A stretch of 64,000 bases of DNA from Chryseobacterium sp. Lineage in GTDB: Bacteria; Bacteroidota; Bacteroidia; Flavobacteriales; Weeksellaceae. Made by a program: the position numbers and the translations under genes. Location: NCBI RefSeq assembly GCF_008014695.1, contig NZ_VOXE01000001.1:1-64000 (forward strand), in the 5' to 3' direction. The notes under the pieces are model-generated. The model was not told the origin of the DNA and did not search any database. It worked only from the letters and a program-made list of their open reading frames with translations. Position 1 is the first letter of the stretch; every line of letters begins with the position of its first letter. This document shows positions 22,436 through 41,037 of this stretch, piece by piece.

Positions 22436-22459
22436 AAAGCTGGTAATAAAATAAGAAAC

Positions 22460-23356: not shown

Positions 23357-23568
23357 TGATTTGTCTTCATTAGTAAAAGAACACTCTATTGCTGAATCTT
23401 ACGACGCCGTTTATCGGCAATACCACAATATTATAGAATAGCGCTATAGAAAGTTAATTCAAACCTGTTTTTGCTGCTAAAAGATCTAATTCCTGGGCTT
23501 AAAGCTGGCTGATATCAATGCCTGATACACGGATATTAAGTATGTAAGGCCTTCACTAGAATTTACAG

Positions 23569-26262
23569 CTATACTGGGATTTCGACAGGAACTTCAATCA
23601 TATTTTTAACCGTCGTATATAGTTCGATGTCTTGTGCCGGTGTTTCAAGGGAAATAATGAGCGAATAGCGGGTTTTATTTTCTACTTTTCCTAAATGTTT
23701 TCGTTCACGCCACCAACCGATAATAGGATAAACAGCAATATGATTACAAGTTGCTAAAGCGGCAGCTGTACCTTCCCAAAAATCAGAATGGATGGAACCT
23801 GTACTACGATTGTTTATACCTATTGCCCAACGACTGCTACCTGCATCTCCACTTACCTCATCATTCTCTTCTCGTGCAGCAATATTGACACGACTTCTAA
23901 AAACATTTTCTGTTTCGTGTACGTTGTTCACATCAAAACGCAAACCGTGGGACGGATAACGATACTTGTCTTTCCAGCCAATTTCGCCTGCTCCAGGTTC
24001 GATAAAATAAGATAGTGTAATTTTTAGTTTTACGGGTATTTCTCCCATTTCCAATAGCAAATCACTAGCCCAAGGTAAATTAAAAAAGTGAATTTCATTG
24101 GTTTCAGGTGTGCTGCTACCTTCTTTAAAATTGAAAGGTTGAATGTAGTCTTGTACAATGTAGGTCAATGCACTTTCCTCACTATAAAGTGCTCGTTCTA
24201 GATCAGGAATACCATAACCAAAAGTTCGCAATAAATTTCGATAACTCCCTCGGTTGCCTGGTTGAGTATGTAGTTGTAACAGCATTGCTGCATTCCAATT
24301 AGCGGAATGAACAATTAAACCTCTGATTGTTTCTGGCCAAGCATTCGGATATTCATAAGCTACTTTAGCAGCGAACCAAGATCCCTGCGCTGTTGCTGCA
24401 CTTGTTGCCCAGATGGTATCAAATTGTCCTCTTGTATTAAATTGTTTTGATGTGGACAGAAGTTCTAAATCTATATGTCCAGTAATACTATTGTCGGAGG
24501 CTCTTAATAAATTTCCACCTTCAAAAACTACATCCGGTCTGATAGCCCATTTTCTTTCCCAAATTAATGAAGTAGAACTATATGGTGAAAGTTCACCCTC
24601 CTTTGCAACCGGTGTGTAGTTTTGAAAACTAGTGTCATATACTTGAACTTTTTCAGTATGTGCTCCTACTACTAAAACATTCCACGCCTGCGCTGGATTT
24701 TGGACAGAAGATGTAAAGTTTGATTCGGGATAGTTTTGCCACGATTCTTCGTCTCGTATATTTCCTGAAGAAATAATTATCAACCGCTGGTTCTCACCTT
24801 CGCCAAATGCCAAATTATCCATCGCACCCGACCACGAAGATGGTCTGCCCATGTTTACATCTTCAGGAGAAGTTACTGACATACAGTAAATCAAAACCAT
24901 ATTTGGGTTTTCAATTTCTGCTCTTAAAATCCCTTGTGCTGTCACATCTCCCCATAATTCTTTTGGAGTTCCCCCGCGATTTGGTAAGATTTTTACTGAA
25001 CACAATTTGTGAGTTAGCTGAATGGAATCAGACGAAAGTAGTATTTGTTCCATCTGTCCATAGCCCGCAATTCCTGCCATAAGCGTACCGTGACCTGCCC
25101 CAGTTTCGTGATCATTTGTTCCCCATGCATTATCAACTGTTAAAGTATTTGCATCGTCGATAAGAGGTAGCAAAAGTTGATGTCCATTGTTTACACCGGA
25201 ATCCAACAGACAGACTTTTACATTACTCTCAACAATATTTATTCTTTGCAATAAATCATCGACCCAAACTTGTTGCTCAATGTTGCTTTCGTTGACCCAA
25301 AACCCTGCTGGTTCTTGCCCTGCTCGGAATTCTGCCAACAGATCGCTTTGCAACATTAATTCCAGCAATTGCTCCCGGTTTGCATATATTAAAAGAACCA
25401 CTCTTTCAGGAAAAATAATACTGTTTTGTTTTACTTCTATACCTATATTTTCAAGTGTAATAAGAAACTGTGCTATTTGTTGTTGTTCTTGATTTTCCTT
25501 AGTATTTACATTTAACCAAGCTTCACACCATTTTTTATTTTCATTAGGAATAGCCTGTAGATTATCAGTCCAAAGACCTTCTAATAACGCAATACTTACA
25601 TCTTCAATACTATTTACTAAGTCAGCATTCGACGGTGTTATTTTTATTGTGGTATTTGGAAAGAGTCTTGTAATTTCACTTATAAAGAATTCTTCTTGTC
25701 CAACTGGTAAATTAATTAAGGATTTGGTTTTAATCACTCCGCCAACAACATTATCTTTTATACTTTTGAGGCTAATATTGTTACCGATTTGGTTAATTGC
25801 AGTAGTAGCGGCTTCGTGATCTATCGAATTTGAGAAAGTAATAGCCGTATTATTCTTTGTGCTATAAGAGTTGATTTTACTAATAAATACACCTTCTTTG
25901 CCATTGGGAACATACACAGTGGCTCGTATTTGCGTTTGATTTTCTATAAGTGGAACTTCTTTGATGTTCAATAAGCGAATGCCTTGTCTTAGGTCTTCTA
26001 AACTTTTTGTAATTAAATCGTGACCTGCGGCACTGTTAAATGAAATATATGTTCCCTCGCGGGTTGCAACTTGTTCAGCTCCTCGCTGTTGTTCAATTTG
26101 CTCTTTCTGTTGCCAGATCTCATCAAATTGCTGCAATAATTTTTGGCTTTGAGATACTCTATTTCTAACGGGTATTCGTGGTTGCGCACCCATTGAAGGA
26201 GGTGCTCTGTATTTTTCGCTACTTCTTACATTTTCTATAAAAATGTGTTTGTATGATGCCAT
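23569..26262 (-). CDS. ietS: Subtilase (S8) protease of an IetAS-like defence pair
   Basis: 897 residues, cytoplasmic (no signal peptide). Subtilisin triad: D354 in LLDSGVNNGH, H391 in GAGHGTLMAG and S621 in ATSAATAQG, with the oxyanion Asn in IISSGN. The N-terminal 340 residues include a Gln-rich coiled-coil (about 38-65). It begins 8 bases after the AAA ATPase gene ends. Known: IetAS pairs (AAA ATPase plus subtilase) act as anti-phage systems and as plasmid-addiction modules. The pairing, order and domain make-up fit; sequence-level identity to characterised IetS cannot be tested here. Confidence 0.85.
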   Translation of the reverse strand: MASYKHIFIENVRSSEKYRAPPSMGAQPRIPVRNRVSQSQKLLQQFDEIWQQKEQIEQQRGAEQVATREGTYISFNSAAGHDLITKSLEDLRQGIRLLNIKEVPLIENQTQIRATVYVPNGKEGVFISKINSYSTKNNTAITFSNSIDHEAATTAINQIGNNISLKSIKDNVVGGVIKTKSLINLPVGQEEFFISEITRLFPNTTIKITPSNADLVNSIEDVSIALLEGLWTDNLQAIPNENKKWCEAWLNVNTKENQEQQQIAQFLITLENIGIEVKQNSIIFPERVVLLIYANREQLLELMLQSDLLAEFRAGQEPAGFWVNESNIEQQVWVDDLLQRINIVESNVKVCLLDSGVNNGHQLLLPLIDDANTLTVDNAWGTNDHETGAGHGTLMAGIAGYGQMEQILLSSDSIQLTHKLCSVKILPNRGGTPKELWGDVTAQGILRAEIENPNMVLIYCMSVTSPEDVNMGRPSSWSGAMDNLAFGEGENQRLIIISSGNIRDEESWQNYPESNFTSSVQNPAQAWNVLVVGAHTEKVQVYDTSFQNYTPVAKEGELSPYSSTSLIWERKWAIRPDVVFEGGNLLRASDNSITGHIDLELLSTSKQFNTRGQFDTIWATSAATAQGSWFAAKVAYEYPNAWPETIRGLIVHSANWNAAMLLQLHTQPGNRGSYRNLLRTFGYGIPDLERALYSEESALTYIVQDYIQPFNFKEGSSTPETNEIHFFNLPWASDLLLEMGEIPVKLKITLSYFIEPGAGEIGWKDKYRYPSHGLRFDVNNVHETENVFRSRVNIAAREENDEVSGDAGSSRWAIGINNRSTGSIHSDFWEGTAAALATCNHIAVYPIIGWWRERKHLGKVENKTRYSLIISLETPAQDIELYTTVKNMIEVPVEIPV

Positions 26263-26270
26263 TCGCTAAA

Positions 26271-27224
26271 TTATTTGTGATATGCTGCATTACGATCTTT
26301 AATTGCTTTTAAGATTAACTCATTATTCATCGGTTGTTTTTCATTCAAAACCGTTTCTTTAATGGCATCAATACAGGCAAGCGATATTTCAGCGTGGCTT
26401 AAGCCGTTTATGTCAGGCAGTAGATCTTTAAATTTGATTTTTTTTGCAAACTGGGCAAGTCGGTTTTTGAGCAATTCTTCTTTCTCTTCCGAACTTGGCA
26501 AATTGTATAAAATTACGTCATCAAACCTACGGAACAGAGCCTGGTCTAATAGTTCTTTATTGTTTGTAATGGCAATTATAAGGCTGTCCGAACTATCCCT
26601 TTCAATAAACTGAAGGAAAGAATTTAGTACCCTTCTCATTTCGCCTACATCATTGTCTCTGCTTCTTTCCCCACCAATAGCATCAAATTCATCAAATAGG
26701 TAAACACCCTGTCGTTGCTCAATCAAATCAAAAACTTGTCGAAGCTTTGCACTGGTTTCCCCCATAAATTTTGTCACCATTTTATCCATCAAAATGGTAT
26801 AAAGTGGTAGTTTTAATTCGTTCGCAACAATAGAAGCTGTTAATGTTTTACCCGTCCCCGGAGGGCCTGAAAGCATAATTTTTCTACGGTTTTCCAAGTC
26901 GTGTTTAAGAAGTTTGTCTCTTTGTACAAATTCTGAAATTATACGATTTATTTTTGATTTAATATCTTGGGGGGCAATAATGTTTGAAAGATTTACGGCA
27001 GGTACGTTTTCTTGAATTAAACCTTGTAAATCAGGGGCAAGTATTTTATTTTTATGCTTAGTTTCCTTTGCTTTGTCTATTATGTTTTTTATTTCGTTAG
27101 CAACAAAGGTATGCCCCAACTTAGCCTCGTGAGCAGCTATTTGCAAAGCTACTGTTGAGAAACGTTCAGGTTCGTTATTGTAATGCGACTTAATTAAAGA
27201 TATTATGTATTCAGCTTTTGCCAT
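26271..27224 (-). CDS. ietA: AAA+ ATPase of an IetAS-like defence pair
   Basis: 317 residues. A helical N-terminal region (about 1-75) precedes one AAA+ module: Walker A LSGPPGTGKTLTAS (about 117-130), Walker B VYLFDEFDAIGG, sensor-1 AITNN and arginine finger FRRFD. It resembles the FtsH/spastin-like ATPases that unfold or remodel proteins. Adjacent protease gene downstream (8 bases). Expected role: sensing the phage or holding the protease inactive (inference from the system). Confidence 0.88.
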   Translation of the reverse strand: MAKAEYIISLIKSHYNNEPERFSTVALQIAAHEAKLGHTFVANEIKNIIDKAKETKHKNKILAPDLQGLIQENVPAVNLSNIIAPQDIKSKINRIISEFVQRDKLLKHDLENRRKIMLSGPPGTGKTLTASIVANELKLPLYTILMDKMVTKFMGETSAKLRQVFDLIEQRQGVYLFDEFDAIGGERSRDNDVGEMRRVLNSFLQFIERDSSDSLIIAITNNKELLDQALFRRFDDVILYNLPSSEEKEELLKNRLAQFAKKIKFKDLLPDINGLSHAEISLACIDAIKETVLNEKQPMNNELILKAIKDRNAAYHK

Positions 27225-27560
27225 TTACGCAAAATTACACTTTTTTCCTATAAGATCTATTTACATCTAAAGAAGCAATGTTGTTGTTGAAAGCACCCCC
27301 GAAAACAGTACGGTTTAAGTATAGAATTAATTAACCATTAACTCGTATTTAAGACAATGCAAAAGAGTGCATTCGGTCCTCGATAGATCGCTATCTCAAG
27401 AAGTTTACCGGAGGGCCAACTGCCGAAAAGTTTGCCTCCGTGGGCGCTACGGTTTTTGCCCACTTTCCAACATCCAACAGCAACAGCAAAACATCAATAA
27501 AAAATTCTACTTTTGAAGCGTACTGAAAATGGGGAGCTTACACACAACACATATTAGTTA
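27225..27560. other. Intergenic region between the IetAS-like and PARIS-like pairs
   Basis: 336 bases. No gene recognised. Bases 27410-27480 are GC-richer than the surroundings and could be a scrap of an older gene; no start or conserved motif was found. The ietA promoter should lie at the left end. Confidence 0.4.
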
Positions 27561-28526
27561 TTAGGCGACGTTTTTATTTATAGTATTGTCGACAATATAT
27601 TTTTTCAAACAGTCGTGGGTTATCGCACAACTTGATAATTGAGAAATCATCGTGGCATATTCATAACGTAATGAAGATGAAAACCTTTTTGTGAAAATTG
27701 TACTATTTTTTTGAGCTATATCTTCTTGAAACCTTTTTAAAAAACAAACCAGAAATTTTAATTCAAATTTTCCTCTAAAATTTTCCTCATATTTTAGTGA
27801 ACTGAATAGCGATATTTTAGCATTTACAATTTCATTTGATATTGGAGGTGCTGACGGAAAAATGCTTGAAAATTTTGAAATATCATTAATGTCTGAATCC
27901 AAATTAATCGAAAAATTACTTTTTACACAATTTTCAAAAATGTCCCTGCTATAATATGTTCTTAAAGAATCATCAATATTTAACCTTGTACTAGTCTTAT
28001 TAATATTTCTATAGTCAGCTTGACATGCTAGCCAACTATTAATATTTAACAATTTCGAATGAAATTCATTTTGACTGGCTTTAAATAACTCCAAAGATTT
28101 AGAAAAGTTTTCATCATTTGGTGAAATATGATATTCATTTATTAAAATATTTTTGAATGATTCTTCAACCGAATAGAAGTTTTCTATACCATAAAACTTT
28201 GTGACATAAATCTCATTCGATATATGTAGGTTGTCATCAAAATCTTTATCAATAAAGTATAAAAGATTACATTGAGAGTACACCGAATTTTTTTTCAAAA
28301 GTTTCTCAATACCAATAACATTACTTTTACCATTACATGTATAATGAAATTTTTGCATATTAGATCCAGTAATTAAATCAATTCGAACAGAATAGTAGCT
28401 TCTATCTTCTTTTCCTTCATAAAAACAATATACAGAATTATTATCTTTTTTAAAATCCAACATGAATTCAGTATAAGCAACTAGTTTAGTTTCTAGCTCT
28501 TGCTTAGATTCTTCAACAATATTCAT
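27561..28526 (-). CDS. ariB: AriB, DUF4435 TOPRIM nuclease of a PARIS-like system
   Basis: 321 residues. The DUF4435/TOPRIM pattern is clear: an early glutamate in YCFYEGKEDRSYY (about 32-44), GKSNVI near 66-72, and the acidic metal site YFIDKDFDD (about 90-98). In known PARIS systems AriB is held by AriA and released when a phage anti-restriction protein is sensed, then attacks host tRNA to abort infection. It starts 5 bases after ariA ends. AT-rich like its partner. Confidence 0.88.
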   Translation of the reverse strand: MNIVEESKQELETKLVAYTEFMLDFKKDNNSVYCFYEGKEDRSYYSVRIDLITGSNMQKFHYTCNGKSNVIGIEKLLKKNSVYSQCNLLYFIDKDFDDNLHISNEIYVTKFYGIENFYSVEESFKNILINEYHISPNDENFSKSLELFKASQNEFHSKLLNINSWLACQADYRNINKTSTRLNIDDSLRTYYSRDIFENCVKSNFSINLDSDINDISKFSSIFPSAPPISNEIVNAKISLFSSLKYEENFRGKFELKFLVCFLKRFQEDIAQKNSTIFTKRFSSSLRYEYATMISQLSSCAITHDCLKKYIVDNTINKNVA

Positions 28527-28531
28527 TTTTC

Positions 28532-29941
28532 TTAATCTATAAATACGTTTAAACCTACTGTATACTCTTCTAAGTAATTAGAAAAAATAAATGGAGAATG
28601 TGTTACTGCAAGTAGAAAACTACATTTTTTTGATTCCAAAATATGCGGAAGTAATTGCTTCTGCCATTTTATTGAAAGTGAAAGCTCTGGTTCATCGAAA
28701 AATACTAAAAAATCATTTTTTTCTTCTAAATAAATTTTTGAGAATAAAGAAACAATCTGTTTTTCACCTGAAGATAATTGATTTAATTCAACTCTGTCAT
28801 CAGTGATGTTATTATAAATATAAAGAGTTACGTTACTTTCGTCGAATATGAATCTCTTTCCGACAAGATATTCATTGCAAATTCGTTCAAATACCTTAAT
28901 AGAATTGTCTAATTCTCTTTGTTGCAAGTAAATATTTTCTAGTTTTATAAGAAAATATGCAAGTTCTTGTTTTTCAACAATTTCACCAGATTCCAACAAT
29001 TTCAATATATTCTCTCTGTCTGTAGAAGATAAATTATTTTTTACTCTGTTTAGAATTATTTCAATATTATTTCGGTTTATGTCTAGAAGTTCACTTTTTG
29101 TCATTATTGGAAAACCTTCTTGAAGTTGATGCAAAATTTCGGCAGATACTCGTGAAAATCCTTTTACAGAACTTTCATTTATCTCTGCAATTATACTTTG
29201 AATTCTTTTTACAACATCTTCCATACCAAATTGAATTAGAGTTTCTTCCTCTAATTCTTCTGTCTCTTCTTTTTCATCTTCATCCCAAAAAATTTTCAGT
29301 TCATCAGATGCTACTTTCCGTATTTTTCCTAAGTTATGAAGTTCCTCTTCAACTCGTCTATATGTTGGGAAATACAAAATATTTTTACTAAAGCTGTTGT
29401 CAATATAATTTATTAGATCAATTAAAGATTGATAATTATTATTCTTATAAATTTGGTCGATTAATTCAACGGCTAAACCTAAAGGGATAGGACTTTCAAA
29501 TTCTTTGTGAAATTTGGATTTTCTTACATATTCTAAGATGATTCTATGTCTATCTACTTTTGATGAGTAAAAATTTTCGTAATAATTTTTTTCCTTTAAA
29601 AATTCTGTCAAATCATCGGGATTAAACTTATTAATTATTTCACTTTTTAGGCCACCAAAACGATATTCTGTCTTTTTATTGAAATATTGTATATAGCTTG
29701 ATAATTGTTCTTTTGAAAATTCAAATTCAATATTATCATCAAATTTTATATAAATGCTTTCGAAATTAATTTTTAAAAGTTTATTCCATTTTTTTGTTAG
29801 AGTAAAATAAATTGAATTTAGGATAGACGTTTTCCCAAGACCATTTTCACCCATTAGAATAAGCTTGTCATCATTAAATACCAAATTTATATTTTGATAT
29901 CCAAATAAATTTCTAATTGAAAATTTTTTCAAGTTGTTCAT
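28532..29941 (-). CDS. ariA: AriA, ABC/SMC-like ATPase (AAA_15) of a PARIS-like system
   Basis: 469 residues. Walker A GENGLGKTSI (about 32-41), a long helical insert with acidic coiled-coil (about 225-345), ABC signature LSSGEKQIVS, Walker B FLVFFDEPELSLS and switch histidine AVTHSPF. This is the AAA_15/OLD-like ATPase type. Followed directly by the DUF4435 gene, the diagnostic pairing of PARIS. The system is expected to respond to phage-encoded anti-restriction proteins, which would back up the RM genes next door. Confidence 0.88.
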   Translation of the reverse strand: MNNLKKFSIRNLFGYQNINLVFNDDKLILMGENGLGKTSILNSIYFTLTKKWNKLLKINFESIYIKFDDNIEFEFSKEQLSSYIQYFNKKTEYRFGGLKSEIINKFNPDDLTEFLKEKNYYENFYSSKVDRHRIILEYVRKSKFHKEFESPIPLGLAVELIDQIYKNNNYQSLIDLINYIDNSFSKNILYFPTYRRVEEELHNLGKIRKVASDELKIFWDEDEKEETEELEEETLIQFGMEDVVKRIQSIIAEINESSVKGFSRVSAEILHQLQEGFPIMTKSELLDINRNNIEIILNRVKNNLSSTDRENILKLLESGEIVEKQELAYFLIKLENIYLQQRELDNSIKVFERICNEYLVGKRFIFDESNVTLYIYNNITDDRVELNQLSSGEKQIVSLFSKIYLEEKNDFLVFFDEPELSLSIKWQKQLLPHILESKKCSFLLAVTHSPFIFSNYLEEYTVGLNVFID

Positions 29942-30177
29942 AAGTAGTTCTTTAAAATGTCGCCAAACGGTTGGGTATTTCTGTTGGCGGGGATTATGTT
30001 AACTGGATTATGTGAATATAACAAAAGAAGAACTGGCGTAAAATCTTTATTCGCTGGTAGGCGACGTTTCGGAAATAAAATCGGAATCTACCGGCTACCG
30101 TAAGCAAAAATATGAAAAAAACTCTTGAGTTTTACACGAAACAGCAATGGCGTTTACCAAGCTGTTACCAGCTGTTT

Positions 30178-31447: not shown

Positions 31448-31711
31448 TTATTTAAGGTCATTGCGTTGAAATAATGGATCATCAAAGAATATATCAAGAG
31501 TAATGTTAATGGTTTTGCAAAACTTATTTATTGAATAAATGCTCACCCCTCTCATATTATTCTCATTGAACCATCTATTAACAGATTGCCTGTCTTTATA
31601 GGCTTCTGAGGCATATGTTGCCTGATTGAGTCCTTTTAATTCTAAAAGGTTATTCATGCGAATTTTTATTTTACTCTTAAGAAGGTGATCTTCTTCGGTC
31701 AGCTTTGCCAT
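31448..31711 (-). CDS. Small HTH repressor divergent from the SusC leader
   Basis: 87 residues from ATG 31709-31711 (MAKLTEEDHLLKSKI); a TTG two codons upstream is less likely. A helix-turn-helix of XRE/phage-repressor type spans about 14-75 (LELKGLNQATYASEAYKDRQSVNRWF, CKTINITLDIFFD). Directly upstream lies a perfect 11-bp inverted repeat (31720-31747), the probable autoregulatory operator, and beyond it a consensus promoter pointing the other way. It therefore likely controls both itself and the transcript entering the structured RNA and SusC locus. Confidence 0.75.
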   Translation of the reverse strand: MAKLTEEDHLLKSKIKIRMNNLLELKGLNQATYASEAYKDRQSVNRWFNENNMRGVSIYSINKFCKTINITLDIFFDDPLFQRNDLK

Positions 31712-31719
31712 AAGCAATT

Positions 31720-31747
31720 TTACAGTAAAAACTAAATTTTACTGTAA
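31720..31747. promoter_or_regulatory. Perfect palindromic operator upstream of the small HTH gene
   Basis: TTACAGTAAAA (31720-31730), spacer ACTAAA, TTTTACTGTAA (31737-31747): an exact 11-bp inverted repeat starting 9 bases upstream of the HTH start codon. A related half-site pair TTACAGAAATGTAA follows at 31793-31806, just after the divergent promoter. Confidence 0.7.
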
Positions 31748-31751
31748 TCCA

Positions 31752-31783
31752 TTTGGTTTACATTGCTATATTTTATATATTTG
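31752..31783 (+). promoter_or_regulatory. Bacteroidota-type promoter facing the structured RNA and SusC
   Basis: TTTG at 31752-31755 and TATATTTG at 31776-31783, separated by 20 bases, match the -33 TTTG and -7 TAnnTTTG consensus of Bacteroidota sigma factor ABfr/RpoD. The start point would be near 31790, inside the TTACAG-type half-site pair, so repression by the divergent HTH protein is plausible. Confidence 0.65.
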
Positions 31784-31853
31784 GAAAATCGATTACAGAA
31801 ATGTAATTTTGCGACACTTCAAATAAAAACAAGAAGCATTCGCTTAGAATCTC

Positions 31854-31960
31854 GTATCAGAAAACTGGTAATTTTTAGCACACGAGAGGATAAGTAGAAG
31901 GCTCACGTCCCGGGCGTGGGCTCTCTTATCTGTGTGCGGGTATACCAGTACCTCTGATAC
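31854..31960 (+). ncRNA. Rod-like structured RNA, 107 nt, upstream of SusC
   Basis: Four nested stems can be drawn by eye. Outer: GTATCAG (31854-31860) with CTGATAC (31954-31960). Second: CTGGTA (31865-31870) with TACCAG (31943-31948). Third: GCACAC (31878-31883) with GTGTGC (31932-31937), and GATAAG (31889-31894) with CTTATC (31925-31930). Tip: GCTCACG (31901-31907) with CGTGGGC (31915-31921, one G-U). Internal loops are short and roughly balanced. The tip strand GCGTGGG can instead pair with CCCACGC at 31973-31979. It lies about 65 bases after the promoter at 31752-31783. Either a free small RNA (6S-like rods look similar) or a switchable leader of SusC; not matched to a known family. Confidence 0.6.
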
Positions 31961-32310
31961 GGTAAGTTGAGTCCCACGCTTATTTTATGCCCAGTTCTCA
32001 ACAATCCTAAGCCAGCTTTCCATAAAGTTTCGCACAGTTAGAAACTTACAGTGGGGTGCACAGCCACTGCGGCCTTCCGGCTTTCACGGGACCTATTTTT
32101 ACATTCATATCAATTTTTGTAGCAGGTAAGGGGATTCCATATTTACCGTGCCTTCCCCCCCTGTGGAAAAAATCCAATGCATGAATGCAGAAAAGGAGCA
32201 CCCAATCCACCGCCATCGGTGCACTGCAACCGCTCCTGCCTCTAACCCAACACGAAACCAAATTCCATATCCTGAATCTCGAACCTCGTCTCGTGTCTAA
32301 CCAAAAAACT
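31961..32310 (+). other. Leader between structured RNA and SusC
   Basis: 350 GC-rising bases without an ATG-started gene of good composition. The frame upstream of SusC stays open from 32185 but lacks a signal peptide at its start. The segment contains CCCACGC (31973-31979), the alternative partner of the RNA tip. Confidence 0.4.
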
Positions 32311-35300
32311 ATGGAACTAAACCAACAATTAACCATTCCAATCATTCTGCTCCTGAGCGTCCTCTGCTCGCAGGCCCACGCCCAAACCCATACCGTTTCC
32401 GGCACGGTCACCGCGGACGGCAAACCCCTTTCAGGCGTCACCGTCTCCGAAGAGGGCAGGGACGTGGCCGCCGTTACCGGTGCCTCGGGAACGTATCAAC
32501 TTACAGTCCAAGGCGAACAGCCCGTCCTTCTCTTCCGCCACCCGTCCTTCGGCGAAAGGCGCGAGGAGATCGGCAGCCAGACCGTCTTTGATCTTTCCCC
32601 GGATGAAAAGGTCAGCGAGATCAAAGAGGTCGTCCTCAATGCCGGCTACTACGAAGTAAAGGCCAAGGAAAGCACGGGCAGCATCTCAAAGGTCACCGCC
32701 AAGGACATCGAGAACCAGCCCGTTACCAATGTCCTCTCCGCCGTTCAGGGCAGGATGGCCGGGGTGAACATCACGCAGAACTCCGGGGTTCCGGGCGGAG
32801 GCTACGATGTTCAGATCCGCGGCCGCAACAGTTTGCGGAACATGGTGAACAGCCTGAACGACGGCAACAGTCCCCTCTATATCGTTGACGGGGTTCCGTG
32901 GGCGGTACAGCTCTCCACGACCTATTCGGCAGGAATTATTCCGGTGCGCAGCATCAGCCCACTCAACAGCATTAACCCCAATGACATTGAGAGCATCGAG
33001 GTACTCAAAGATGCCGATGCCACGGCGATCTACGGAAGCCGGGGCGGGAACGGAGTGATCCTGATCACGACCAAAAAAGGAAAGTCAGGCCCGGTCCGGG
33101 TAACCCTGAACTCAAGCCAAAGCTACAGCAGAGCCACGAACCGGCTTCAAATGATGAATACCGCTGATTATATCACCATGCGGAGGCAGGCATACGCCAA
33201 TGTGGGTGTTACCGCCCTGCCGGCAAATGCCTATGACATCAATGGCTCCTGGGATACCAGCCGCTACACCGACTGGCAGAAGGCACTGACCGGGGAGACT
33301 GCAGAACAACTGAGCGTGCAGCTGTCGGTGGCAGGCGGGTCGGAAAAGAACAGCTTTTCAGTAAGTGCCGGACATCAGGACCAGACATCGGTCTTCCCCG
33401 GCGACCAGCATTATAAGGTGAATACGATAGCCGCAAGCTACAGCCACCGTTCCGCAGACCGCAAGTTTACCTTGGGGCTCAGCAACACCTTTTCTGCCGC
33501 GGTGAACAACAATCTGGCAACGGATTTTACGAACAGGGCACTGAGCCTGTCACCGAACGCACCGGCGCTGTACGATGCCGAAGGAAATCTGAACTGGCAG
33601 AACAACACCTTTAACAATCCGCTGGCACAGCTGAACGCCAGCTACCTGAATGAGGTCAAAACCCTGAGTCAGAACCTGAATGTAGGGTATAAGCCTCTTA
33701 CAGATATTACCGTGAAGCTGAACACCGGCTTTACCCTGCAGGACCTGGAAGAATATTCGCTGATTCCTAATACCGCTTACAGTCCTGCGTCCGCATCGGG
33801 AGCGGGCCCGGCCAGCTCCTCCGCAAGTCGCGGCACAAGTGCCGTATTTTCCTACCTCCTCGAACCGCAGGTCTCCTGGAAGAAGCAGTACGGCAACCAC
33901 AGCCTTGAGGTGCTGGCAGGAATGACCTTTCAGGAAAGCCGTTCTAAACTTTCCGCCATGCGGGGAACCGGTTTTGCCAGCAATGCCCTGATGCAGAACA
34001 TTGCAGCAGCCACCAACATTACGCTTTCCGATTTCAGCGACACCCGGTACCGGTATGCCGCCTTCTTCGGGAGGGCCAACTGGCAGTATAAGGAGCGGTA
34101 CATCCTGAACCTTACCGCGAGGCGGGACGGCTCTAGCCGCTTCGGCCCTTCTGACCGTTTTGCTGACTTCGGGGCGCTCGGTGCTGCATGGATCCTGTCC
34201 GAAGAGCCTTTCCTGAAGGAGATCCCGTGGCTCTCCCTGGCCAAACTCAGAGGAAGCATTGGAAGGACGGGAAGTGATGCCATCGGGGATTTCCAGTATG
34301 AGGATACCTATACGCTGGGTTCTTCATCCTATAACGGCATTCCGGGCCTTTATCCTTCCCGGCTTTACAACCCCGGTTTCTCCTGGGAAAAGACCGACAA
34401 GCTGGAAGCAGCTGCAGAACTGGCCTTCTGGAAGGACCGGCTTCAGGTTACGGCAGCATGGTACCGCAACCGGTCTTCGAACCAGCTGATTGGGATTCCT
34501 TTACCTACGACCACAGGCTTCACAAGCATCCTGGCCAATCTGGGGGCAACTGTGGAGAATAGCGGAATGGAGGTGGAAGTGGCGGGGACTCCCCTCAAAG
34601 GTCAAGACTGGAAGTGGTCTGTTGGTTTCAACATCAGTATGCCGCGCAACAGGCTGCTCGCGTTCCCGGGGCTTGAAGGCTCTACCTATGCCAATACCTA
34701 TGTGGTCGGGGAATCGATCTACGCCGTAAAGCTCCTGGATTATCAGGGCATCAGCCCCGCCACTGGGCAGTACCAGTTCACTGATTATAATAAGGACGGC
34801 AAGATATCAACCCCGGACGATGCGCAGGCGCTGCGCACCCTCGGTCCGGAATATTTCGGCGGGTTTCAGAACAGCTTCACCTACCGGAATCTGAGTTTCT
34901 CCTTCCTCCTGCAGTTCGTGAAACAGGAGAACTGGAATTACATCCGAACGATGAGTACTCCGGGAGTAATGGTCAATCAACCCACTGAATTCCTGAATGT
35001 ATGGTCGGCAACCAATCCCGGGGGGATCATTATGCCTTATACACCGGGAACCAATGCTGTGACCAATACCCTGACGGCAAACTTCAAAAACAGTACGGCC
35101 GCGGTGGGCGATGCCTCCTTCATCCGGCTGAAGAATTTCCAGCTGAACTACCGCATCCCTGTGAGAACTCCCGTCTTACGGGAAGTCAGCCTGTATGTGC
35201 AGGGCCAAAACCTGTGGACCTGGACGAAGTATTTCGGCGCAGACCCTGAATTTATTACTTCCGGATTCCTGCCTCCGCTGAAGACCGTCTCTATGGGAAT

Positions 35301-35316
35301 GCAGTTAACCTTTTAA
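32311..35316 (+). CDS. SusC/RagA family TonB-linked outer membrane transporter
   Basis: 1001 residues from ATG 32311 (MELNQQLTIPIILLL), which gives a proper signal peptide (QAHAQ at its end); an upstream ATG at 32185 would put 42 non-signal residues before it. Order: carboxypeptidase-D-like regulatory domain (about 27-100), TonB plug (about 130-250: LSAVQGRMAGVNITQN, DADATAIYGSRGGNGVILITTKKG) and a 22-strand barrel to the C-terminal phenylalanine. Imports oligosaccharides or peptides with the SusD partner 11 bases downstream. The S9 peptidase in the same operon favours peptides. Markedly GC-richer than the defence island to its left. Confidence 0.93.
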   Translation: MELNQQLTIPIILLLSVLCSQAHAQTHTVSGTVTADGKPLSGVTVSEEGRDVAAVTGASGTYQLTVQGEQPVLLFRHPSFGERREEIGSQTVFDLSPDEKVSEIKEVVLNAGYYEVKAKESTGSISKVTAKDIENQPVTNVLSAVQGRMAGVNITQNSGVPGGGYDVQIRGRNSLRNMVNSLNDGNSPLYIVDGVPWAVQLSTTYSAGIIPVRSISPLNSINPNDIESIEVLKDADATAIYGSRGGNGVILITTKKGKSGPVRVTLNSSQSYSRATNRLQMMNTADYITMRRQAYANVGVTALPANAYDINGSWDTSRYTDWQKALTGETAEQLSVQLSVAGGSEKNSFSVSAGHQDQTSVFPGDQHYKVNTIAASYSHRSADRKFTLGLSNTFSAAVNNNLATDFTNRALSLSPNAPALYDAEGNLNWQNNTFNNPLAQLNASYLNEVKTLSQNLNVGYKPLTDITVKLNTGFTLQDLEEYSLIPNTAYSPASASGAGPASSSASRGTSAVFSYLLEPQVSWKKQYGNHSLEVLAGMTFQESRSKLSAMRGTGFASNALMQNIAAATNITLSDFSDTRYRYAAFFGRANWQYKERYILNLTARRDGSSRFGPSDRFADFGALGAAWILSEEPFLKEIPWLSLAKLRGSIGRTGSDAIGDFQYEDTYTLGSSSYNGIPGLYPSRLYNPGFSWEKTDKLEAAAELAFWKDRLQVTAAWYRNRSSNQLIGIPLPTTTGFTSILANLGATVENSGMEVEVAGTPLKGQDWKWSVGFNISMPRNRLLAFPGLEGSTYANTYVVGESIYAVKLLDYQGISPATGQYQFTDYNKDGKISTPDDAQALRTLGPEYFGGFQNSFTYRNLSFSFLLQFVKQENWNYIRTMSTPGVMVNQPTEFLNVWSATNPGGIIMPYTPGTNAVTNTLTANFKNSTAAVGDASFIRLKNFQLNYRIPVRTPVLREVSLYVQGQNLWTWTKYFGADPEFITSGFLPPLKTVSMGMQLTF

Positions 35317-35327
35317 AAAACCAAAAA

Positions 35328-36710
35328 ATGAAAAAACAACATACCCGATATGCCGCCGGAGCGGCCCTTGTCCTCTTTACCCTGCTCTCTTCCTGTGAAG
35401 ACCTCGTAGAGGTAAACGAACCCATTAACCAGATCAGTACCGGACAGGTATTTGAATCGGTAAGCACTGCCGATGCGGCACTCAGCAACCTGTATGCGGA
35501 GATGCAGGCCTATTCCCTTATCAGCGGAGGCTCGCCGGGTGCAGGTGCCGAGTTGGGAGCCTATGCCGATGACCTTTACGGGTACGGAGTAGCCACGCAG
35601 AATTCCGACTTCGATATTTTCAGCAATACACAACTGCCCTCCAATACCAGGATTAAATTGGTCTGGAGCAATGCCTACAAGGAGATTTATATGGCCAATT
35701 CAATTATAGAAGGCATCGAGAGCAGTACGGCCATTTCAGAGCCGGACCGGAGAAGGATCAGGGGGGAATCGCTTTTCCTGCGTTCACTCGTGTATTTTTA
35801 CCTGACCGAGGTCTTCGGGGACATCCCGTACACCACCACGACCGATTACATGGTGAACAAAAGCCTGTCCCGTACAGCTGAAGCGGAAGTGTTGCTGAAG
35901 ATCCGCCAGGATCTGTATGATGCTGCTGCAATGATGGAGGATTCCTATCGCAGTACGGAACGCATTTATGCGAACCGCAAGACTGCTGAAATCTTACTGG
36001 CTACGGTGTTGATGACCCGGCAGCAGTACGCTGAAGCCGAGACCCTGCTGAAAGGAATCGTGCAGAATCCGCTCTATATATGGCAGCCCGACCTCACTAA
36101 GACCTTCAAGATGACTGGAAAACATATCCTGTGGCAACTGAAACCGCTGAAACCCGGCAATCCCACCAATGAGGCCACGCTGTATTATTTTGTAAGCGCA
36201 TTGCCCAATACCTACACACTGTCCGATCCGCTGGCTCTTAGTTTTGCATCCAATGACCTGCGTAAACAGAATTGGGTCAAATCAATAGTGATCGCAGGCA
36301 AAACCTATTACCGACCCGACAAATACCGCAACACGGTGAACAATACGGATGAATACTCGGTCGTGTTCAGGCTGGAGGAGGCCTACCTGCTTCTGGCTGA
36401 GGCCTTGGTGCAGCAAAATAAACTGGGCGAAGCCCTTCCTTATCTGAATGCCGTCAAACAGAAGGCAGGAATCAGTGCAGCACCGTTAACCCTCACAAAA
36501 GTCCAGTTGCTCAATGAGATCCTTAACGAGAACAGGAAAGAGTTTTTCACCGAAAGGGGCATCCGCTTCCTTACCCTTAAAAGAGCTGGCCGCCTGAACG
36601 ATCTTAGTGCGGTAAAACCCAACTGGAAATCCTGGCATATCCATTGGCCGGTGCCGGTGTCCGAACTGCTACTCAATCCCAATCTTAATCCGCAGAATGA
36701 TGGGTATTAA
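35328..36710 (+). CDS. SusD/RagB family substrate-binding lipoprotein
   Basis: 460 residues. Lipobox LLSSC (Cys about 22), then the SusD-like N-terminal segment (NEPINQISTGQVFESVSTADAALSNLYAEM) and the helical TPR scaffold with RGESLFLRSLVYFYLTEVFGDIPY. Surface-exposed lid over the SusC barrel. Its end overlaps the S9 peptidase start by 14 bases, so the three genes are one operon. Confidence 0.93.
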   Translation: MKKQHTRYAAGAALVLFTLLSSCEDLVEVNEPINQISTGQVFESVSTADAALSNLYAEMQAYSLISGGSPGAGAELGAYADDLYGYGVATQNSDFDIFSNTQLPSNTRIKLVWSNAYKEIYMANSIIEGIESSTAISEPDRRRIRGESLFLRSLVYFYLTEVFGDIPYTTTTDYMVNKSLSRTAEAEVLLKIRQDLYDAAAMMEDSYRSTERIYANRKTAEILLATVLMTRQQYAEAETLLKGIVQNPLYIWQPDLTKTFKMTGKHILWQLKPLKPGNPTNEATLYYFVSALPNTYTLSDPLALSFASNDLRKQNWVKSIVIAGKTYYRPDKYRNTVNNTDEYSVVFRLEEAYLLLAEALVQQNKLGEALPYLNAVKQKAGISAAPLTLTKVQLLNEILNENRKEFFTERGIRFLTLKRAGRLNDLSAVKPNWKSWHIHWPVPVSELLLNPNLNPQNDGY

Positions 36711-39183
36711 GTGGAAAATGCAGCTGAAACTGCCGCTTGGTGTTCTCCTGCTCTTTTTTATAGGCATCCGATTATCCGCGCAGAATAAAGGTCTTTCTGC
36801 AGGAAGTCCCTTCACTGGGAAAACCTACGATCTGGCATGGATAAGGCCATCCCCCGACAGTAAATACATTTCATTCCAGAAAAACTATGAAAGCGGTGCC
36901 GATACACTGGTGTTGGTTTCTGCCACCATCCCGGGCCGCATCATTTTTCAGACAGCGGGAGTATATCCTAACCTGCTGCACTATTCAAAGAATGGCTACC
37001 TGTTTATGACGGGAAGCGGTACGGTAAAATACCTGAAACTCCCTCTCCTGAGACCGCAGGTCTGGGAGGGCGTTACCAAGGCTTTTTTTCTGGAGAAGGA
37101 TAATGGCTTTGTGTTACTGCAGAAGGGGATTCTGAGGATATATGATGAGGAGGCGCATGTTGTTGAAGAGATAAAAGAAGTCACCACAATAGAGCAGAGG
37201 GAGGATCAGCTGTTTTATATTCAGAAGAGGGGGAATTCGTATGTTCTCGTGCAGTGGTCAAGTCTATTAAAGCAATTGGTGTACACCGCTTCCAGTCCCA
37301 AAATTACACTTGATTTTTATGAAGGACAGCGCTTCATTGTTCATGAAACCGATCCGGTCACCGGAGAAGTAGCGGTAAACCATATTGATATCGGAGCAGG
37401 TACCACCTCACCGCTGCTAAATGATAAGTCGCTGTCCTTTAAGAACGTTGCTGCAGTTTCCGAAAGTCAACCCGGAAACTATTTCATGACGATGACGGCA
37501 TCTGCCCCTGTCGTTCAGAAATCCGCCGTTGACATTTGGTACGGCAATGACAATGATCTGGGAAAGAAATTTCAGAACGGCCTTTCCCTGAAATATTACC
37601 TATGGGAGCCCGCACAGGATAGGGTAACGCCGCTTGAGGATGTGCGGTTTACAAAACACGTCGATCCGGGCAACGAGCGCTTCCTGCTGGCGCTCAATCC
37701 GTCCCTGCATCAGGATTACACCAAAGAACGAATTCCGTATGAGCTCTGGCGCTATGACCTCGTGCAGGGTAAATATGACCTGCTTGGAACAACGGGGGTG
37801 TATTGTATGATGGATCCGAAAGGAAAGTACCTGCTCTCCTACGACTATACCGACTGGGTGCTTTTTTCGCTGGATACCAAAGAAAAACGAATCATAAAAG
37901 CAGACCCGGATGCCAGACCGTATTTTGATGAAAAAGGGGAGAGAATTGTATTTGCCGGCGCGGGCACGATCAACGAATATGATATTTATGACAATACCAT
38001 GGAGGTCATTCCGTTACCGGAAGGGTTTGAAGCTTCGGTACTGAACGGCACAAGGACCAGGCTGGGCGCGGAAAGCCGTTTCAGCACCGATTGGTTTGAC
38101 GGCTCCTGCCCGCTGCTGATAAAGATTACCCACCCTGAAACCATGGAGCAGGCAGTGGGTGTTTACCATAAGAATAAGTTCCGGCTGCTCTATAAGCCCT
38201 CGGCAGAATACGTGAATCTGGCAGCTGCGATGCCGGATGGGAGGAGTTTTTTGTATGTGAAGAGCAATTACAACCGCCCGCCGGTTTTGATGTTGAACAG
38301 GAAGGGTAACGAGAAGGAACTCTTTCGGAGCAACCCAGCTGATACCCGTTCAGCATTGGTGAGGATGGAGAAGAAAATTTATAAGAACTCCCGTGGTGTC
38401 CCGCTGCAGAGCCTCCTTTTTTATCCGTCACACTACGATCCGCAAAAGAAGTACCCAATGATCACCGGCATCTATGAGCTTTTGCGGAACCAGAGCAACA
38501 GATATTTACGGGACGGTTTTGCCAGCAGGATCGAAGGGATGAACATCCGTTATTACCTCGAAAGAGGCTACTTCATTTACCTTCCGGATATCGTGTATGA
38601 CGGAAGGGGGCCTGGCCGCTCGGCTCTGGACTGTGTGGAAAGTGCACTGGATGCCCTGAAGGATATGCCTTCCGTAGATATGCAGAAGGTGGGGCTGATG
38701 GGCCATTCACATGGCGGCTATGAAACCAACTTCATTGCGACCCAGAGCAGGCGTTTTGCTGCTTATGTGGGCGGAGCCGGAAACAGCGATCTGGTTCGGT
38801 CCTACCATTCATTCAACTACAACTTTGTCAGTCCGTTTTACTGGCAGTTTGAGGAACAGCAGTACCGCATGTTCAAACCTTTTGCGGAAGACAAGAACCT
38901 CTATACAGACAACAGTCCCGTTTATCATGCCGAGAAGGTGAGCAGCCCCATTCTCCTGTGGGCCGGGACGAAGGATGAAAACATTGCCTGGGACCAGACC
39001 ATGGAATTTTACCTCGGGCTCCGCAGGAACGGGAAGAAGGTGGTGGCCCTTTTTTATAGAGGAGATGGACATAACCTCCTGAATACTGCCAACCGCGAAG
39101 ACCTTTTTATCAGGATTTCGGATTGGTTCGGTTACCATCTTAAAGGACTTGAAAAGGATTGGATCCGGGAAGGGGAAAATTAA
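36697..39183 (+). CDS. S9 family serine peptidase (prolyl oligopeptidase type)
   Basis: 828 residues with an N-terminal membrane/signal segment (LGVLLLFFIGIRLSAQ). A long beta-propeller region (about 40-590) precedes the alpha/beta-hydrolase domain with S671 in GHSHGGY, D760 in GTKDENIAW and H792 in GDGHN. Such enzymes cut short peptides, often after proline or alanine, and in the periplasm would process what SusCD imports. Start chosen as ATG 36697, overlapping the SusD stop; a second ATG follows directly. Ends at a strong bidirectional terminator. Confidence 0.9.
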   Translation: MMGIKWKMQLKLPLGVLLLFFIGIRLSAQNKGLSAGSPFTGKTYDLAWIRPSPDSKYISFQKNYESGADTLVLVSATIPGRIIFQTAGVYPNLLHYSKNGYLFMTGSGTVKYLKLPLLRPQVWEGVTKAFFLEKDNGFVLLQKGILRIYDEEAHVVEEIKEVTTIEQREDQLFYIQKRGNSYVLVQWSSLLKQLVYTASSPKITLDFYEGQRFIVHETDPVTGEVAVNHIDIGAGTTSPLLNDKSLSFKNVAAVSESQPGNYFMTMTASAPVVQKSAVDIWYGNDNDLGKKFQNGLSLKYYLWEPAQDRVTPLEDVRFTKHVDPGNERFLLALNPSLHQDYTKERIPYELWRYDLVQGKYDLLGTTGVYCMMDPKGKYLLSYDYTDWVLFSLDTKEKRIIKADPDARPYFDEKGERIVFAGAGTINEYDIYDNTMEVIPLPEGFEASVLNGTRTRLGAESRFSTDWFDGSCPLLIKITHPETMEQAVGVYHKNKFRLLYKPSAEYVNLAAAMPDGRSFLYVKSNYNRPPVLMLNRKGNEKELFRSNPADTRSALVRMEKKIYKNSRGVPLQSLLFYPSHYDPQKKYPMITGIYELLRNQSNRYLRDGFASRIEGMNIRYYLERGYFIYLPDIVYDGRGPGRSALDCVESALDALKDMPSVDMQKVGLMGHSHGGYETNFIATQSRRFAAYVGGAGNSDLVRSYHSFNYNFVSPFYWQFEEQQYRMFKPFAEDKNLYTDNSPVYHAEKVSSPILLWAGTKDENIAWDQTMEFYLGLRRNGKKVVALFYRGDGHNLLNTANREDLFIRISDWFGYHLKGLEKDWIREGEN

Positions 39184-39495: not shown

Positions 39496-39519
39496 TTCAT
39501 AAAAATTTAATTGTTTTGC

Positions 39520-41037
39520 CTACTCTGAACCGGGTTTTCGGCTTCTCCCGTTGATGAAATGGTCTGTAAGTGCTTGCGCGCAGCGGTAACGGACTATCAC
39601 ATCACCCGACAGTACATAGAAATACTGGTCGGTTATGAACATCCTGGACATTTTATTTTTATCGCGGTTCTGGACATACATACTGCCCCAGTAGCCCGCA
39701 GGTGCTGTTGTATATACATCTACAACAGTATTCTTTTTCCAAAGCTCTTTTGATTCATGCCTGCCGATCAGATTGGATGCACTGAAAAGCAGGCCTTTGT
39801 GCACGGCCATATACCTGTTCACCCTGAGGGGCGGTTCGGTCATCTTTTTTCGCCCGTCCTGCAAATTTTTCACCTTTATTCGTGCTGTAGAAACCGTGTC
39901 AATGGTTTTCATACGTGAAACGACTTTGAGTGAACTGTTTAGCTTAAGGATCTGGTTTCTGTAATAAAACAGATAGTAGGCATATCCCTCTGCAGTATCA
40001 TACAGCAGCTGCCCGTCGGCATCGAAACCCCCGTCTGCCTTAGCCGTCAGTACGCTGCTGTTAATCTGTACCCGGTATTTTTCTCCTAACGTAAGAGTGG
40101 CAAGTCCTGTCCGCTGCGATGTTTTTTCTTCCACCCGTAACATGAATTGGGTGGGAGAAAGCACTACAAACTGATCGAAGTACGCTTGATCACTGCTGAT
40201 CTCGCGCAGCGGATGCTGCAGCGAATCGATGGGTGCTGCATAAATTACTGGCACCATACCGTCGTAGGCAAAGAGCATACTGTTCTGCACCAGATACCTG
40301 AGATGGCGGAAGTCTCTGTCCGTGCTCGGCACCACGTCGATGGTGTCGGGTTTTTTGAAAAGGCTGTCCATCTTCAGGATTCTGAAAGGGCTGGTGGGAT
40401 TCCCAAGATAGATGCTGCCCGCTTCGCTTCCGGCAAAATAATAGGAGTTGACTTTCAGGTCATAAGACTTGTCCTCAACAATCGGATGGTGGGGATACCT
40501 CCTCGTAAAATTATTTTCTCTTTCTATGAGATGTTCCGAAGAAAAGAAGAGGGCAATCATACCGCCTGATCCCAGAAGAAATACCGCCGCCATCTTCAGT
40601 ATCGGTCTGCGCAGGCCGGCAGCATGGTCTTTTTCCAGAACCTGTACCCCTGTTGCAGCCAGAACCACACAGCCGATATTGAAGATCAGATGCTCCGTCC
40701 ATCCCATTTTCTCCAGGATGCCGCCGCATGAGCACGGGACAAAATCACTGTAATTCAGGATCAGGTAAATATAGACGGTAAACGCCACCATTAGGGTGAA
40801 TGATGCGTACAGCCCGGCAAGCCGTGTCCTTTGGTTCAGCAGCAGACCTGAAATAAGGAGTTCTGCTGCAATCACTGCGTACGAAACGAATCCGGCGTAA
40901 GCACTGAGCAGCGGCGACTGCCCGATCTGCACCTGGAAATTCTCAAAATCCATCATCTTGCTCATACCAGCGTAAATAAACAGCAGTACAAAAAAGTATG
41001 ATATCAGATCAACGATTATGGAAGGTATCTTTCTCAT
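39520..41037 (-). CDS. MauE/DoxX-like membrane protein with C-terminal propeller-like domain
   Basis: 505 residues. The first 150 residues form four to five helices of the MauE/DoxX type with the hallmark CSCGGILEKMGW (about 101-112). A fifth hydrophobic helix (about 148-166) leads to a 330-residue periplasmic domain of repeated beta strands, resembling a six-bladed propeller. MauE proteins support disulfide formation and maturation of exported partners. Fusion to a large periplasmic domain is common in Bacteroidota beside DUF6520 and SusC genes, but its role has not been set out. Overlaps no gene; a 55-residue protein ends 17 bases upstream. Confidence 0.8.
   Translation of the reverse strand: MRKIPSIIVDLISYFFVLLFIYAGMSKMMDFENFQVQIGQSPLLSAYAGFVSYAVIAAELLISGLLLNQRTRLAGLYASFTLMVAFTVYIYLILNYSDFVPCSCGGILEKMGWTEHLIFNIGCVVLAATGVQVLEKDHAAGLRRPILKMAAVFLLGSGGMIALFFSSEHLIERENNFTRRYPHHPIVEDKSYDLKVNSYYFAGSEAGSIYLGNPTSPFRILKMDSLFKKPDTIDVVPSTDRDFRHLRYLVQNSMLFAYDGMVPVIYAAPIDSLQHPLREISSDQAYFDQFVVLSPTQFMLRVEEKTSQRTGLATLTLGEKYRVQINSSVLTAKADGGFDADGQLLYDTAEGYAYYLFYYRNQILKLNSSLKVVSRMKTIDTVSTARIKVKNLQDGRKKMTEPPLRVNRYMAVHKGLLFSASNLIGRHESKELWKKNTVVDVYTTAPAGYWGSMYVQNRDKNKMSRMFITDQYFYVLSGDVIVRYRCAQALTDHFINGRSRKPGSE

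Follow-up and report, generated by a model that had tools for sequence, protein, structure and literature searches.

The DNA stretch of 64,000 nucleotides from Chryseobacterium sp. analyzed here (the window) contains a structured RNA upstream of a SusC/SusD operon. With a probability of roughly 0.6, it is a cis-acting 5′ leader of a Bacteroidota-wide family which comprises an attenuator, and to which a dCas12f-sigmaE layer is added in relatives. This reading is built on the family, the fold, the two-state pairing, the U tract, the cis position, the cassette in which the leader stands and the match between guides and leader tip, each of which can be seen in the sequences.

A rod-shaped leader RNA upstream of SusC

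All strings named in the preliminary description were found in place, namely GTATCAG (31854-31860), GCTCACG (31901-31907), GCGTGGG (31914-31920), CTGATAC (31954-31960) and CCCACGC (31973-31979). The 107-nt rod folds with a minimum free energy (MFE) of −49.1 kcal/mol, compared with −26.9 ± 3.6 kcal/mol for 200 dinucleotide shuffles, none of which was as low (z = −6.16), and a z-score of −5.29 was obtained for the fold of 31840-31990. The four nested stems that had been described from GTATCAG to CTGATAC are supported as a fold, by this z-score and by covariation, but not in their number, as the rod contains five conserved helices (31855-31959; plus strand, like all leader elements named here). 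These are H1 (31855-31860/31954-31959), H2 (31864-31870/31943-31949), H3 (31878-31883/31932-31937), H4 (31889-31894/31925-31930) and H5 (31901-31907/31915-31921).

The extent of 107 nt also had to be revised. The transcript of the conserved element is predicted to span about 31818-31985, both ends being predictions, and includes a 5′ hairpin AAGC/GCTT (31834-31845), which is seen in the alignment of the copies and in folds of growing transcripts, a covarying helix TCTCG/CGAGA that had not been listed, and a U-rich end. The covariance model R1 matches the window at 31831-31986 with 166.7 bits, and the DNA homology among the leader copies starts in the promoter region.

Segment 1 of the leader (31843-31854) pairs with 31883-31894 and forms helix S1. 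Segment 3 (31914-31930) is the switchable tip strand, which pairs either with segment 2, giving H4 and H5, or with segment 4 (GGTAAGTTGAGTCCCACGC, 31961-31979), the 3′ arm of an alternative, terminator-like stem (T) with seven core pairs. A U-rich tract with 6 T in the best 8 positions lies directly behind segment 4 (31980-31986). The tip sequence GGCGTGGGCTC (31913-31923) matches guides of dCas12f gRNAs of relatives and is a predicted RNA-guided target, which is an orphan in the window's genome.

The leader had not been recognized as a known family, in agreement with Rfam 15: at E ≤ 10 the region 31500-32400 yielded two sub-threshold chance matches and no leader, riboswitch or 6S family, the likeness to these families consisting in being a structured 5′ RNA. 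The sole Rfam match in the window at the gathering score is a DUF805b cis-regulatory RNA at 39517-39551 (minus strand), which is unrelated to the leader.

Conservation and covariation of the leader family

Judged by its sequence relatives, the leader is a member of a large Bacteroidota leader family that is absent from Rfam. A second copy in the same genome (C2:712267-712425, 153.5 bits) is also located upstream of a SusC; DNA and R1 searches yielded no third convincing copy there. In a DNA search of 60 genomes, including the window's own, leader matches were obtained in 23, one of which (G055) is a 22-base chance match. A pattern scan of named genomes returned at least 119 stretches, and the 80 loci examined belong, by their titles, nearly all to Bacteroidota, the genera among the listed loci including Kaistella, Chryseobacterium, Flavobacterium, Maribacter and Muricauda. 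A profile recovered the leader RNA in 77 of these 80 listed loci, the other three including Blautia and Patescibacteria records; five of the 77 copies, which were cut, weak or at contig ends, were dropped from one list. R1 was built from 36 copies, and its specificity rests on E-values and covariation. At E ≤ 0.001 it matched in 64 of 295 class-sampled and 35 of 296 phylum-sampled genomes, two samples that overlap, with up to 6 copies per genome; in the genomes compared for co-occurrence with dCas12f, copies reach 8 per genome.

Compensatory changes in homologues, on which the preliminary description had made its proposal depend, are present. Across 93 aligned copies (91 distinct), 98.3% of the rod cells are paired and 25 of the 30 pairs have changed on both sides, with a covariation score of 0.374, whereas shuffles gave 0.126 and slid partners no more than 0.030; none of 500 shuffles was as high by any measure. 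The same is seen in 68 distant copies (67 distinct), where 97.0% are paired, 29 of 30 pairs covary and the score is 0.733 against 0.186 (shuffled) and at most 0.073 (slid). Both alignments were fitted to the rod, so that these counts lean to it, while S1 and T lie outside the model. For S1, 96.4% of the cells are paired and four of eight pairs have changed on both sides. T is paired in 97.2% of the cells with three of seven pairs changed on both sides, mostly by G-U changes; among 500 shuffles, 46 reach its count of double-change pairs and 202 its count of further pair types.

By inspection, the letters of the internal loops (GAAAAC/ACCUC and AUUUUU/GG) are kept while several stems vary freely, and the copies within one genome differ in their stems. 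With regard to a metabolite riboswitch, in which a ligand-binding aptamer would precede the genes of one pathway, conserved internal loops were observed together with mixed cargo. As a possible phage or plasmid element, the window copy and L237 gave no phage match and two plasmid records were matched; this reading was rejected.

Promoter, operator candidates and the divergent HTH gene

A promoter-like site, TTTG-N20-TAATTTTG, is located at 31780-31811 on the plus strand, with TTTG at 31780-31783, a spacing of 20 nt and TAATTTTG at 31804-31811; transcription is predicted to start near 31818. The site is seen in many aligned copies and matches the Bacteroidota promoter consensus, and its position, 43-74 nt upstream of 31854, agrees with the consensus promoter that had been noticed there. 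A sigma-70 scan, which does not cover the Bacteroidota promoter type, found no site at this position. The −7 element is overlapped by an inverted repeat ATTACA-N4-TGTAAT (31792-31807, no strand assigned), and similar repeats occur in several copies.

Further upstream, a small XRE-like HTH gene (31448-31717, minus strand) is encoded divergently. Its product of 89 aa, with the ATG at 31711, is a predicted locus-specific repressor that is 47-50% identical to ORFs adjoining the leader copies L014, L016 and L037. A Pfam search of the protein at E ≤ 0.001 gave no match. Two further palindromic elements without strand lie in front of the promoter: an inverted repeat between HTH gene and promoter (31720-31747), which is a candidate operator and was not equalled by any of 20 shuffles, and the palindrome GTAATCCATTTGGTTTAC (31744-31761), whose core is also the best palindrome in L048, L063, L098, L132 and L143. 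Two of these loci carry related HTH proteins, those beside L016 (the L048 locus) and L037 (the L063 locus) being 50% and 47% identical to that of the window.

This arrangement is common in the family. Among the listed loci, 65 of 80 named ones have a divergent ORF of at least 60 aa ending 28-183 nt before the leader match, and a Cro/C1-type HTH model matches at least 42 of these 65 ORFs at E ≤ 0.01. The gap between HTH gene and leader holds an inverted repeat that was unmatched by any of 20 shuffles in 30 of 89 loci, compared with about 4 expected; the palindromes there vary from locus to locus.

Cis position and cargo genes

In the window, the leader precedes genes on the same strand coding for a SusC/RagA-type TonB-dependent receptor (32311-35316; Pfam Plug and TonB barrel), a SusD-like protein (35328-36710; Pfam) and a peptidase of the S9 prolyl-oligopeptidase family (36697-39183; Pfam), the ORF of which overlaps the end of the SusD gene. 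The SusC start lies 351 nt after 31960, matching the distance of about 350 bases given before. The spacer contains a second conserved element at 32041-32115 (plus strand), which occurs in some copies only: blastn matches to it or to the neighbouring part of 31991-32115 were obtained in 17 of 116 other leader loci, and an Rfam search of the element gave no match. Upstream, the region 19217-30000 is defence-island-like by ORF inspection, with a large R-M-like protein, an Mrr-like endonuclease, a subtilisin-like protease with an AAA ATPase, and a pair of AAA and DUF4435-like proteins.

Across relatives, the leader stands on the sense strand just 5′ of a gene. For the 67 distant copies, from which the duplicate L215 was left out here and in the list of first ORFs, the closest ORF of 80 aa or more on the downstream side shares the strand of the leader in 60 of 65 cases (p = 5e-13), compared with 36 of 67 for the closest one on the upstream side. 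Among first ORFs on the leader strand with this minimum length, 51 of 61 start no more than 85 nt behind the end of the RNA, 8 of these 51 being ATG calls within its last bases. Judged from this placement, the RNA is probably a cis-acting 5′ leader. An integron attC site had been considered for the distant copies with their mixed cargo. It was dropped because the upstream orientation is random and, by inspection, a conserved promoter-like sequence precedes many of these copies.

Flavobacterial copies usually form a cassette of a divergent XRE-type regulator, the leader and cargo. When the first downstream gene coding for 130 aa or more was tallied in the listed named loci (L091, L092 and L138 left out), 37 of 65 encoded SusC/RagA proteins (TIGR04056) and 5 of 65 sigma-70/ECF-type factors. 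In six Chryseobacterium copies (L094, L101, L128, L129, L132 and L160), the first cargo gene encodes a protein of about 174-197 aa starting with MKKxRTDF or MKKIKxDF. Some distant leaders precede R-M methylases. Pfam assigned four N6/N4 DNA methylases and four RibD_C proteins among 59 distant first genes, two of the 61 having been left out as too distant, and PADLOC methyltransferase models match up to 5 of the 59. The RibD_C-type genes stand behind four distant leaders of similar sequence (L273, L276, L281 and L290). By inspection, many other distant first genes resemble small secreted proteins or lipoproteins, and some copies (L072, L109) lie within conjugative-element-like gene sets with Tra-like and excisionase-like proteins.

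Alternatively, promoter and terminator might belong to an independent small RNA that acts in trans, and the cargo might depend on separate promoters, served in some species by dCas12f-sigmaE. This would account for the promoter-like site and the U tract, for the spacers to the next long ORF of several hundred to more than 1500 nt in many flavobacterial copies, and for the guide AGAGCTCCTCACATT of G017 and G026, whose sequence recurs in the spacer following a different leader in each of these genomes. It is hard to reconcile with the same-strand downstream ORFs and the close starts in the distant copies, and the conserved tail pairs with the tip and is not a free seed, while copies of the same genome differ in their stems. 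An independent small RNA, as had also been suggested, is therefore not the best fit and is considered rather unlikely.

Two exclusive folds and a uridine-rich tract

For the tip strand GCGTGGG two exclusive partners had been proposed, and both pairings are conserved. In the 89 of 93 rows without gaps there (four rows were left out), all 7 pairs of the tip with GCTCACG are kept in 83 and all 6 checked pairs with segment 4 in 76. Where the tip departs from CGTGGGC (19 rows), it fits the two partners with averages of 6.63 of 7 and 5.58 of 6 pairs. None of 2000 reshufflings reached these values (means 6.46 and 5.11), although the gain is small. A stem with the segment 3/4 sequences GGCGUGGG and UCCACGCC presumably also surrounds the 790 loop of 16S rRNA, probably by coincidence.

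The full fold of 31819-31990 reaches −60.9 kcal/mol, compared with −53.6 kcal/mol when S1 and T are forced. The rod is thus favoured by about 7 kcal/mol over the terminator state. By default, transcription would therefore read through, and the terminator state would be reachable but would require some factor to favour it. Transcripts with 3′ ends at 31886-31926 contain S1 in their MFE structure, and in longer ones the rod displaces it. RNAalifold on alignment A1 gave the alternative fold as consensus, with the rod absent, so that a two-state model was adopted. The loop of the T stem is long for an intrinsic terminator.

At the end of the model, a U tract (at least 5 T in 8) was found in 88 of 91 copies of alignment A4 and 63 of 66 of A5, the incomplete copies L115, L116 and L286 and the duplicate L215 having been left out. 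The surroundings are AT-rich, so that U-rich windows are common, up to 39% of the upstream controls (316 of 819 in A4, 173 of 594 in A5; downstream 149 of 797 and 115 of 585). A possible fifth segment pairing with segment 4 was set aside as suggestive only: complements of at least 6 nt were seen in 19 of 89 copies (shuffles 116 of 1780) and in 21 of 65 copies (shuffles 106 of 1300).

The leader thus has two exclusive folds, one of which is a stem followed by a U tract. Since the tip swap is conserved and the U tract lies behind it, attenuation appears to be the best mechanism. The earlier suggestion of an attenuator for nutrient uptake genes fits best, as the leader lies on the coding strand 5′ of SusC and SusD and combines both conserved pairings with the U tract.

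The rod could also act in processive antitermination of the put or EAR kind, by binding RNA polymerase or Nus factors so that later terminators are passed. The RNA lies close behind the promoter-like site, the cargo is diverse, flavobacterial spacers are long, and the internal loops are kept where stems vary, all of which would suit such a function. The conserved alternative pairing and the U tract would however be left unexplained, which makes this reading improbable.

Connection to dCas12f and RNA-guided sigma factors

In several loci the cargo consists of a 271-aa sigma factor and a 364-aa protein. The former matches chain C (RpoE) of PDB entry 9n9q (2e-81), the latter 9n9c, a nuclease-deactivated Cas12f (1e-157). 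Such dCas12f-sigmaE machines, which are reported to be the subject of a 2025 preprint by Hoffmann et al., are said to perform RNA-guided transcription with a 5′-G TAM and a start site set by the R-loop.

A profile search identified dCas12f in 22 of 395 genomes of the order (29 loci), and it was found in 5 of the 60 relatives; the search of the window's genome (G000), which has two leaders, did not find it. With 29 loci from the order-wide search, 2 from relatives and 3 from the named-genome pattern scan, 34 dCas12f loci were examined. A strong leader match lies 1.03-1.12 kb upstream of dCas12f in 27 of them; the match is weak at L316, and none was found upstream of dCas12f at L078, L311, L321, L324, L325 and L328. 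The leader itself was rejected as the gRNA scaffold of dCas12f, because dCas12f is far rarer than the leader in the 60 genomes (5 against 23, one of these a chance match) and separate gRNA-like scaffold repeats stand behind dCas12f.

The guides match the leader tip in the orientation of the cargo. A guide with the tip strand GCGTGGG is found in 29 of the 34 loci and one-base variants in 3 more (L323 GCGTGAG, L130 GCATGGG, L123 GTGTGGG), which gives 32 of 34; L320 and L321 have unrelated guides. These loci are related, so that the counts are not independent. At L123, the tip of the leader is changed too (GTGTGGGCTCACTTATT), and the guide GTGTGGGATTACTTATT shows two differences in 17; that both are altered is telling. 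The guide of L319 (GCGTGGGCTCTCTTATT) and its own leader (GCGTGGGCTCACTTATT) are one base apart, whereas five own leaders read GGCGTGAGC with the guide there still being GGCGTGGG. When the best guide was compared with its own leader, an exact plus-strand run of at least 9 nt was obtained in 8 of 27 loci and of at least 8 nt in 16 of 27, against none of 27 with at least 8 nt on the minus strand; among 200 shuffled guides, the longest run was 12 nt for one locus and 10 nt for another.

All 22 genomes with dCas12f have a leader at E ≤ 1e-6, compared with 13 of 19 listed genomes without dCas12f; the genomes are related and the 19 were not randomly drawn.

Another guide, AGAGCTCCTCACATT, is located directly behind the gRNA scaffold in G017 (L050) and G026 (L061). 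Each of these genomes also carries the 15 bases in the spacer that follows a different leader, 193 nt (L051) and 262 nt (L065) past the end of the match, and a further copy lies about 1.6 kb upstream of the L065 leader. G035 has the site behind its L057 leader, and the two arrays examined there lack this guide. Counting the gRNA itself, the 14-nt core is present three times in G017 and three times in G026; it also occurs three times in G035 and was not found in five other genomes tested. Tandem gRNA-like repeats and duplicated 3′ fragments of the dCas12f gene were observed in some of the loci L050, L055, L061 and L078, the L050 fragment comprising 94 C-terminal residues at 84%. It looks as if guides multiply through duplication of the end of the dCas12f gene.

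Given these matches, the conserved element might be mainly an address at the DNA level, the tip being the dCas12f-sigmaE target and the RNA fold secondary, which the 32 loci with tip-matching guides and the leaders in all 22 dCas12f genomes would favour. The stems nevertheless covary as RNA, and dCas12f was found in few of the genomes, the window's not among them, so that this reading is very improbable. A 6S-like RNA, which would mimic a promoter and bind the RNA polymerase holoenzyme, had initially been considered, and the long rod with internal loops might suggest it. This is extremely improbable, since no Rfam 6S family matches at E ≤ 10, up to 8 copies per genome stand ahead of different genes and the consensus lacks a large central bubble.

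Proposed mechanism

For the cis-acting leader with an attenuator, the following regulation can be envisaged. The divergent XRE-type protein would control the promoter by repression, and the transcript would then meet the attenuator. Pairing of segments 1 with 2 and 3 with 4 would lead to the terminator-like state, and pairing of segments 2 and 3 together with the long H1-H3 rod to the antiterminated state. A factor binding the conserved internal loops is assumed to choose between them and thereby to make termination conditional.

In relatives with the dCas12f-sigmaE pair, the guide matches the tip strand, so that the complex is predicted to assemble on the leader DNA, oriented toward the cargo. 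Transcription would then begin past the terminator's 5′ arm; such a restart inside the leader would leave out segment 3, prevent the terminator and bypass the attenuator. In the window's genome, the attenuator layer alone would act, since dCas12f was not found there.

Some observations speak against this explanation. The functionally mixed cargo argues against a simple metabolite riboswitch, the more stable of the two states is the rod and not the terminator, and the support for the T stem comes mostly from G-U changes.

Relation to known systems and significance

Attenuators of the trp and T-box type are laid out in segments with the pairings 1:2, 2:3 and 3:4. The leader resembles them in its three overlapping pairings and in the terminator-like 3:4 stem followed by a U tract, and differs by the long extra rod H1-H3 and by cargo that does not belong to one pathway (SusC, sigma/dCas12f, R-M). 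The cis-encoded small RNAs at polysaccharide-utilization loci of Bacteroides are reportedly antisense; they share with the leader the location next to susC, whereas the leader is on the sense strand and upstream. In relatives, the proteins of the dCas12f-sigmaE systems are themselves cargo of the leader, usually with guides that match its tip, but the leader is not the gRNA and is present in many genomes in which dCas12f was not found.

Literature searches on RNAs near SusC and on dCas12f and RNA-guided sigma factors yielded no paper describing the leader. For Flavobacterium psychrophilum, 64 structured 5′ elements have been described, some of which are conserved in other genera without Rfam matches (PMC9723704). 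The passages compared with the leader name none of these elements upstream of SusC.

Going beyond the single locus, it is tentatively proposed that the leader serves as a phylum-wide control port of accessory operons. XRE repressors would act on the promoter and the fold on elongation, and a general dCas12f-sigmaE guide would address the terminator-forming tip and so bypass the attenuator at many operons at once, including that of the complex itself. This may hold, although we rate it as less probable than its failing.

SusC/SusD operons help decide what Bacteroidota can eat, and to our knowledge it is not known how most of them are switched. A leader common to SusC operons, R-M genes, mobile elements and RNA-guided sigma factors would offer a common switch that can be tested. 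It also suggests a biological target for dCas12f-sigmaE machines, which may be a family of leaders and not one operon.
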